Assembly (NCBI GenBank): GCA_022829145.1
Contig: CM040744.1
Location: forward strand, 1,520,501-1,584,500
Source: Albula goreensis
Taxonomy: Eukaryota > Chordata > Actinopteri > Albuliformes > Albulidae
DNA: 64,000 nucleotides
Direction of reading: 5' to 3'
Part shown: one piece after another, positions 22,878-25,800 of the stretch
Layout of the letters: each line of letters starts with the position of its first letter
Numbering within the stretch: the stretch's first letter is position 1
The notes under the pieces: model-generated
The model's input: only the letters and a program-made list of their open reading frames with translations
Database searches by the model: none
Told to the model about the DNA's origin: nothing
Made by a program: the position numbers and the translations under genes

Positions 22878-22893
22878 ATGGCTAAGTTGTCAG
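22878..22893 (+). CDS. Membrane-protein gene exon 1 (MAKLS)
   Basis: ATGGCTAAGTTGTCAG then donor gtatgc. Only 16 coding bases, ending in phase 1. It can be joined in frame either to exon 2 (24099) or to exon 4 (25491). Confidence 0.65.
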
Positions 22894-25800
22894 GTATGCT
22901 GCTGTGCGTCACTCTAATTTCAGGACCATTATAGTAGATCGATGTAACCCTACTTTTAATTATTTGCAAAGCTGAATAAGTAATCGCATTAAAAAATAAG
23001 CGCGTTAAACAGGAGATCCTACGGAGCCACTACAGTCCCAGAAGGTGATACATTTTATAAGATATTCGGTATTTTACGGGCTCGGTAAAGATACAATGTA
23101 AATCAGGAACTATTAAAACTCAGCAAAAACTGTAAACTGACGGAGACGTATCACGGCGATTGATGACTCGCAGCCAGACTGTAGGAGATTCCATATGAGA
23201 CGTGCACTCCTGCCAGTCACGACCGGCTCTTGCCAGCCGGCAAGTACCGGCTCAGCAGTCGCTATATCATGAGCATCCGATACGTAAGCAGCGTACAAAA
23301 ATGTTACATTTCACGGCGTGCTCGTCAGTTTCCGAGGAATACAGAGGCTAAAGGAAATCTGAGTGTTAATCTCCACGTTCTCCCTGGAGGCAGCTTGTGG
23401 CGATATCGAGGTATGATATGCCGTTCATTATCACGTAGAAGTTACTTGCTCCATAATAAGCAGTCACTTGTCGCATCGTGTTAATAACGCTTTTTATTAA
23501 TAAAAGTAATATTCGACCTGCTTAAAGATTTAAACAAAGATGTTTTCTGCCCTATTCATGGAGTCTAGTGTTGATTGCATCATGTAAATTCACTTTCAAA
23601 GAGTTATGCGGTAGGTTTGTAGAGCCGTCCGCTACGTCGAAAACGATTTATCCGTCGCTGAACTGAAGTTCATCCTATTTGTCCACGAGTATTCCGGTCT
23701 AGCTCCGTTAATTGGACATTTTTGTGTATGTTGTTTCTTTTATTATTGATGCACTGATTTCTGGTTAATAATATGTATGCATTATGAAATTCAATCAAAA
23801 CAAACATTACATTACAACGGGTTTTTTTTTAAATTTTTATTTTAACCAGACAAGTAAATTTGTTCTTAGATTTTCTTATCGTTCTAAAACAGAATAGCGC
23901 GTGGTCTTAAAGGACGTTATCAATTTTAAGTGCACATAAACGAGAGCATTTGATAAGGTGGGAAGAAAAAAAATCCTCGTTGTAATGTCTTTGGTACGTT
24001 GCTGCCACCTACAGCAATTCTTCACTTCTACATGGAAAACCATTTCTTGCATCGCTATATGAATGTGATTAATTGTTTCTCAAAATACGTCCCTACAGTA
24101 ATTGAACAACCAAAGAAGAGTGTGGAGGAAAATCTCCCTGTGCAGGAGACTGGGTATGTCATTCCGCAACACAAGAAGCCTAACTTCTTGTGTTGTAAAT
24201 ATATTTATAATATTACACATAATAGTCCATCTGGATTTTATGTCATAATCAGTTGCCCAGGTCTGGATTTTTGACATCCACAGCAGATATCACATGGCTG
24301 TCTTTCTAAGGACTTTAATCACATTTAGCAGACAATCAGAATAGGTTCATCCAGTTTTTTTGCAAATGAAAGAACAAAAATGTGCATAGTGGCAAGTGCA
24401 TGTCGTATGTTGTGTACTCATGTGCTTATCATAAATAAACCAAATAGATTTCCCTGGTGGTTGAGCCAGTCCTGGTCCTCTCACAGTAACCAAATATAAA
24501 CTGTTTCTACAGTGACCCAGCCAATGCCAATGAGGAAAACTCTGACAAGCACTATGTGGAAGAGGAGATAAGGGATCAGGAAATGGTGGAGGAGAAGGAG
24601 AAACCAGTGCTGGAGGAGGAGGAGGTGAAGATTGAACAAGTGCAGATAGAGAAGGAACCTTTGAAAGCTGTAGTAGAGGGGGATGAAGTGAATTCCAAAA
24701 AGAAATTGGAGGAGGAACTGAAGGCAGAGAAGAAAATGGAGGAAGAGGGCGTAAGGGTTGAGGAGAAAATGGAGGAAAAGCTGGAGGAGGAGGTGTTTAC
24801 AGGTCACTACAGTGTGACAGAATGTCAAGGTCATTCCCCACAAGATGAAGCCTCTCAATCCGCTCAAGGAGACGAGGCAGAGCCCGTGGACCTCTCATCG
24901 CCTCAACAGGACAACGACCAAAGTCGAATGAAGATGAAGCGGAAGAAAAAAGGAGCTAACAAAAGGCCCTCGAGGACGAATGCTAAAGCATCACCTGCAG
25001 CTGTGAAGCGTACCAAAGATACACCCCCACTGAATCTTAAGGAATTCTTGGTCTTCAAAATCTCCAAACGTTGTAAGTTTCCCTGTTGGACATTCGTTTC
25101 TTTGAATAAGCACTGGGGCTAGGCGTAACCCACATTTTATCATTGTCCTCCTAAGAAAGTACCGAGCTATATGGTGATTAGTGATGAGTGAATTATGTGT
25201 AATGACACTAAATGTATATCTTACAATAATATCAGCATGCATCATTTAACTATTGAACGACACAAGAAAGCTACAACACTGCACATAGCCCAACAGAGCA
25301 GTGCAACTTCACCGCTGATTTTCAGAGGCTTGCGGTCTTAGGTTCTGTTGGTTACAATAAGATGTTGCTGCAATTCTGAGCTTTATGTATTCGCTGTGCA
25401 GATGCATCACCTGCAACATCACTAAAATGAAGGCATATAAAATGATCTATTGCTAATGTACTTTAATGTTAAATATGACAACTTCAACAGACATCAACTT
25501 CCTCCTGATGGCCCTGCTATGGTCTCCTGTGGCTGGATATCCAACCCCCGAGCCAAGTAAGCAAACAGGTATGTGATCCAGTGTGCTTTAGCCTTGTTGT
25601 TTCCCTTTTTTGGCAAAATCTCTCTGAACGTCATAACGTCTCCTCTTTCTTTCTTCTCTTTTTCTGATAGCTTCTCAGTCTTGAAAAGAATCTGACATTA
25701 TGATCTGGTGAACAGGTAGTTTTTACCTGATGTTATTATATTACCGGATTGTTATTAGAGAATGCTCTTTAGTTGTATTTTTTTTTTTACATTTTTGTTG

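Follow-up and report, generated by a model that had tools for sequence, protein, structure and literature searches.

Genomic context and exon structure

The window, that is, the whole stretch of 64,000 nucleotides that was analysed, corresponds to C4:1520501-1584500 and is animal DNA, presumably of a bony fish; all genome-wide searches were performed on the same 932-Mb assembly. It harbors on its plus strand a putative receptor gene, flanked upstream by the end of an UNC-45 gene (plus strand; PDB match to UNC-45, E 5.6e-13) and downstream by a SAXO-like gene (plus strand; SAXO1 chain, E 4.7e-6; Pfam SAXO1-2, 24.5 bits, which is below the cut-off of 26.5). An ERCC6L2-like helicase is encoded on the minus strand at ~45-61 kb of the window (Pfam RHH_ERCC6L2, E 9e-9, together with SNF2 domains). 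Rfam searches located a tRNA gene at 31181-31252 (plus strand) and an UnaL2 LINE 3' element at 37029-37082 (minus strand), and a tandem repeat with a unit of 40 nt (9.7 copies, 92% matches) occupies 9366-9754. The features of the receptor gene are as follows:

22771..22778, plus strand: TATA-like box (cataaaag), ~100 nt 5' of the first ATG, read from the sequence, with a putative promoter function
22878..22893, plus strand: exon 1 (e1), 16 nt, encoding MAKLS plus one base (G), phase 1
24099..24153, plus strand: exon 2 (e2), cassette exon, 55 nt (VIEQPKKSVEENLPVQETG)
24513..25072, plus strand: exon 3 (e3), cassette exon, 560 nt, with an acidic charged helix (predicted from one sequence), a basic NLS-like cluster and the PPLNLKEFLVFKISKR end; frame open beyond chance, phases and net frame kept in a paralogous copy
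25491..25568, plus strand: exon 4 (e4), 78 nt, signal-peptide core INFLLMALLWSPVAG; copy at L005 5209-5132
26225..26461, plus strand: exon 5 (e5), Cys-rich ectodomain with five of the six Cys; two genomic places
27125..27166, plus strand: exon 6 (e6), sixth Cys
27896..27925, plus strand: exon 7 (e7), stalk
28034..28084, plus strand: exon 8 (e8), start of the transmembrane (TM) region
28716..28782, plus strand: exon 9 (e9), remainder of the TM region and basic flank
29214..29313, plus strand: exon 10 (e10), coding part with stop, cytosolic tail ending in NGIV
30216..30620 (end approximate), plus strand: probable 3'-UTR exon (acceptor ...ttcacacag), AATAAA at 30430 and 30594

The internal boundaries of all ten coding exons consist of GT donors and AG acceptors. 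The region 22800-22877 is devoid of ATG, and the ATG of e1 is the first one after the TATA-like box. A further donor is located 7 nt past the stop codon in e10.

The cassette of e2 and e3

It had been predicted that an in-frame cassette of two exons can be included in or omitted from this gene. The coordinates, phases and splice sites on which this prediction was based all hold, and e2 and e3 together comprise 615 nt, or 205 codons, without a stop. Both joins are in frame: e1 spliced to e4-e10 encodes 206 aa and e1-e10 encodes 411 aa, with the same tail. Skipping of only e2 or only e3 leads to a stop after 24 or 46 residues, so that neither exon can be used without the other. Each of e4-e8 has phase 1 at both of its ends; a cassette would therefore join in phase in ~1 of 3 cases, and such a fit alone is weak evidence.

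The openness of e3 was compared with first-order Markov resamples, in which its frame remained open in 1 of 5000 cases (0.0002), and a plus-strand frame of 210 codons was found in 1 of 1000 resamples of the interval between e1 and e4. When the halves of e3 were analyzed separately, the fraction of open resamples was 0.003 for the acidic half and 0.043 for the second half. Two antisense frames are open in the acidic half as well, and composition thus explains part of its openness.

Predicted products and topology

The short product has the layout that was originally proposed, with INFLLMALLW from residue 7, an ectodomain with six Cys and one TM helix, for which the best segment spans 19 residues (Kyte-Doolittle mean 2.21). 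According to hydropathy and sequence reading, it fits a generic type I membrane receptor with a signal peptide, an extracellular Cys-rich domain, one TM helix and a cytosolic tail. In this form INFLLMALLW-SPVAG is N-terminal and reads as the signal, for which the -3/-1 rule gives a fair cleavage site behind SPVAG. A structure prediction of e5 from one sequence was unusable (mean pLDDT 41.6).

The long product was thought to lose this signal by burial and to become a nuclear-type protein. Inclusion of the cassette does not simply bury the signal, since the core then directly follows the basic flank KISKR(Y) and may serve as a signal inside the chain. Such a signal does not have to be N-terminal, and basic residues next to it favour the cytosolic side for the part that precedes it. 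By hydropathy, the e4 core is shorter than would be expected of a TM anchor. The same analysis places the TM helix (e8-e9) in both products, and the long form is thus not devoid of targeting or membrane segments. As it retains the e4 core and the TM helix completed by e9, it is expected to reside in the membrane and to carry an additional cytosolic tail of ~210 residues. Such a form is likelier than a free nuclear protein, and the predicted switch to the latter was not supported.

An acidic coiled coil, another part of the original prediction, was not recovered in a simple heptad test of our own, as the best a/d count of 5 out of 8 was matched by 4635 of 5000 shuffles. Residues 48-96 of e3, in its acidic part, were predicted from one sequence only to form a long helix (means of 10-residue blocks up to 93, overall mean 64.3). 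Since a long helix is predicted and a heptad excess is absent, this part is better described as a single charged helix than as a coiled coil.

The basic cluster in e3 is KMKRKKKGANKR. A soluble product bearing this NLS-like sequence could be formed only by skipping of e4 or by read-on into the intron after e3. In the former case e3 joins e5 with a TAG at the junction, yielding 210 aa, and in the latter 16 extra residues are followed by a stop. A stop upstream of several junctions leads to mRNA decay, and the TAG at the e3-e5 junction, being so placed, should invite nonsense-mediated decay. The nuclear half of the earlier reading is doubtful.

A partial copy on contig C11

With the DNA of e3 as query, three further matches at two places, both on contig C11, were detected in the same genome. 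At the first place (L005, C11:826000-835900, minus strand) lies a copy that, introns included, runs colinearly with the part of the window between 24269 (intron 2) and 28818 (just past e9). Its exons e3'-e9' follow the order of the window, with length differences of 369 (e3), 0, 0, 9, 6, 12 and 3 (e9) nt. All five changed exon lengths differ by multiples of three, compared with 6 of 33 gaps in local intron alignments. Although e3' is 369 nt shorter than e3, donor, acceptor, phases and net frame are kept, and e3' to e8' are all open. In the nucleotide alignment of e3 and e3', gaps of 1, 4, 5, 7, 13 and 50 nt occur among a total of eleven, and only their sum is a multiple of three; both ends of e3 align in frame, whereas the middle does not. 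The best-preserved pieces are RMKMK..KKG and PPLNLKEF..FKI.

Since the copy keeps e3 open with the same phases and a kept frame, the receptor gene probably has in e3 a genuine coding exon. Of the originally proposed switch, the part concerning the gene stood: e3, and by its phase e2, looks coding and joined to the receptor gene, and in the partial copy e3 still lies next to e4-e9, with order and phases unchanged.

Within C11 816.1-1045.8 kb and 1076.1-1105.8 kb, no homologue of e1, e2 or e10 was detected. In e9' (L005 1516-1447, minus strand) an in-frame TGA follows the hydrophobic run; the start of e9' was placed by similarity, and use of the nearest AG acceptor, 12 nt further, leads to the same in-frame TGA. 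We presume that this hydrophobic ending resembles a GPI-signal-like tail. The copy, e3' included, probably evolved for a long time as coding sequence. Because of the in-frame TGA in e9' and the missing ends it may be dead now, or it may give rise to a shorter product that ends in a hydrophobic tail. If it is a pseudogene, it may testify about the past only.

At the second place (L006 4724-4540; C11 ~1.09 Mb, ~1090.6 kb) a solitary piece of the e3 end with an in-frame insert of 27 nt was found, and no receptor exons were detected near it in the 30 kb of C11 1076.1-1105.8 kb. With regard to the other possibility raised originally, that of a cassette captured into the gene, such a solitary end without receptor exons would fit loss or mobility. 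In a genome-wide search in which the best candidates were scored, the ectodomain was encoded at two genomic places; a third candidate on C19 (E 0.5) was not accepted.

Divergence of exons and introns

Between the gene and its copy, 100 of 426 aligned codon bases of e4-e8 differ, as compared with 352 of 2410 bases of the alignable introns (Fisher p ~1e-5). The contrast was also seen with e4 and e5, which align without gaps (70/315, p ~9e-4). The intron figure is derived from local alignments covering 2410 of ~3995 intron bases, and dropping the unalignable parts lowers this rate. The contrast also stands for introns that were aligned nearly in full, namely the one between e3 and e4 (410/418 bases, 53 differences) and the one between e7 and e8 (108/108, 16 differences).

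A dN of 0.294 and a dS of 0.240 were calculated, giving a ratio of 1.22 (bootstrap 0.77-2.14), which does not prove positive selection; dS is higher than the rate seen in the introns. For 63 aligned codons of e3, in which the alignment is doubtful, dS was 0.76 and dN 0.22. As judged from the alignments, the pattern is one of fast change inside a preserved reading frame, and the gene looks like one for an unclassified, quickly diverging surface protein. Such proteins are often tied to immunity or fertilisation, and the presence of two gene copies in one genome makes selection testable.

Splicing and polyadenylation signals

Splice sites were scored with an approximate matrix made from the consensus. 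The donors of e1 (8.9) and e4 (9.6) were strong and those of e2 (5.8) and e3 (5.3) fair, and the acceptors reached 3.1 (e2), 3.1 (e3), 1.3 (e4) and 0.9 (e8). As e8 is needed in every form, a low acceptor score is no bar to use. In e3 (560 nt) 17 overlapping GARGAR words were counted, compared with 4 in the ~2.0 kb around it, e2 included. GARGAR words have a role in exon inclusion. From the end of e3 to 26069, neither AATAAA nor ATTAAA is present on the plus strand. None of these splice signals favours skipping, and regulated as well as constitutive inclusion would both be compatible with them.

Searches for relatives and comparison with known systems

With an E-value limit of 10, the receptor, the ectodomain, the two-member alignment and the cassette part each retrieved 0 Pfam families, and the receptor had no match in the PDB at the same limit; the sequence collections that were searched hold almost no animal sequence, so relatives in other fish may exist. 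Two PDB matches of the ectodomain to a bacterial kinase (E 1.5) were at chance level, and a phmmer match of e3 to CENP-T (E 0.24) was read as chance similarity of low complexity. Searches of viral contigs gave no confirmed relatives among 3 pattern stretches for the receptor and 71 for the cassette, and none of 27 stretches in bacterial and archaeal contigs was confirmed as a relative of the ectodomain. From the literature on the gene neighbourhood, the splicing arrangement and exons outpacing introns, nothing was taken up.

Hemogen, in teleosts Si:dkey-25o16.2, is a small nuclear protein of fish that has both an acidic part and a basic NLS (PMC6124579). It is similar to the cassette in combining an acidic part with a basic, NLS-like one. 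However, Hemogen has its coiled coils and NLS N-terminally and four coding exons (PMC6124579), whereas in e3 the basic part comes after the acidic one and runs into a membrane protein. As layout and NLS position differ, Hemogen was rejected as a source of e2-e3.

IL1RN is a gene with secreted and intracellular isoforms, and icIL-1Ra2 contains an extra exon downstream of the first exon specific to icIL-1Ra1 (PMC8009184). There, one gene encodes products with and without a signal peptide through changes at its 5' end, and in the receptor gene the two possible reading frames would allow a comparable change. Loss of the signal in IL1RN results from an alternative first exon combined with use of an internal acceptor, whereas in the receptor gene the start exon would be shared, the signal core would be kept but lie 205 residues inward, and a TM helix is present.

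Fast-evolving, duplicated receptors of immune cells or gamete surfaces form a known class. The gene resembles them in encoding a short type I protein with a Cys-rich domain and in having exons that are more diverged than its introns, and it differs from any named family of this class in lacking a Pfam or credible PDB match.

Interpretation of the locus

The anatomy of the gene is real, and its support is now firmer than the original prediction could offer. Exon structure, phases, open frames and the retention of the phases and net frame of e3 in the copy were observed directly, and on them we base a proposal for splice forms, topology and function. We tentatively favour, at somewhat less than an even chance, one gene with an optional pair of exons, e2+e3, from which a short type I form and a long membrane form with a cytosolic N-tail would be made. 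Exons e1 and e4-e10 would encode a small, fast-changing type I membrane protein, with e2 and e3 as an obligate coding pair placed after the start codon and ahead of the signal-peptide exon. If both are skipped, e1 and e4 would give a cleavable N-terminal signal peptide and the Cys-rich domain would face outward. If both are included, a 205-residue acidic/basic segment, predicted to be largely helical or disordered, would precede the e4 core, which through the positive flank KISKRY might function either as internal signal or as a weak signal-anchor, with e8-e9 as the second hydrophobic pass. This long form would thus be membrane-bound, with an extended N-tail in the cytosol, and not a free nuclear protein. 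Should the gene make both forms, a single splicing choice would move the signal from an N-terminal to an internal position and thereby change the membrane side of the N-terminus.

Constitutive inclusion of e2+e3, such that only a 411-aa two-pass protein with e4 as internal signal is produced and the 206-aa receptor is never made, is unlikely, though it has to be reckoned with. It would agree with the acceptors of e2 and e3 outscoring that of e4, the richness of e3 in purine words, the basic KISKR directly 5' of the e4 core and the net frame of e3 kept in the C11 copy. However, e1 and e4 together give a good signal peptide with a plausible -3/-1 site, which would be a coincidence if unused, and the core is short for an anchor. 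We consider it decidedly improbable that the promoter drives the 206-aa receptor only and that e2-e3 are either part of another transcript, separate or from an alternative promoter, or a decaying remnant. The solitary e3 end at C11 ~1.09 Mb, around which 30 kb revealed no receptor exon, would be consistent with this, as would the open frame of e2, which reaches back to 23957 and includes an in-frame ATG at 24032, and the read-on after e3 of 16 residues plus stop, where the C11 copy is open for 19 codons. Against it stand the phases, which match e1 and e4, the position of e3' beside e4'-e9' with donor, acceptor and net frame kept, and the absence of AATAAA and ATTAAA 3' of e3 until 26069 on the plus strand.

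A true nuclear isoform, arising by skipping of e4 (junction TAG, 210 aa, basic C-terminus), by intron read-on or by release of the N-tail, is highly improbable. The same bases at the e3-e5 junction in the C11 copy, again forming the TAG, and the basic cluster would speak for it, but an exon beginning with AG is unremarkable and basic clusters are common in low-complexity protein. Moreover, the position of the junction stop predicts decay of the mRNA, and the read-on form lacks a canonical polyA signal. A more far-reaching version of the favoured reading, in which one gene with an optional e2+e3 pair makes both membrane forms, is rather improbable as a whole: under a single promoter, the gene of an orphan fish receptor in an arms race would yield, through the paired cassette between start codon and signal core, both a type I surface receptor and a two-pass form. 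The latter would carry a long basic/acidic tail in the cytosol and might be retained at the inner nuclear membrane by the basic cluster, and the hydrophobic core would be an N-terminal signal in the former product and an internal one in the latter.

Minor observations

The short motifs PVQET (e2, window 24137-24151) and TPQED (tail, window 29236-29250) resemble TRAF-binding motifs, possibly by chance; this resemblance was weighed and not relied on. A stop-free stretch at window 25969-26168, 66 codons up to a TGA, is preceded by an AG acceptor in phase with e4 and could be an alternative terminal exon of the gene. It gave no match in Pfam and was dropped as an alternative exon after e4; the open stretch is partly preserved in the L005 copy.
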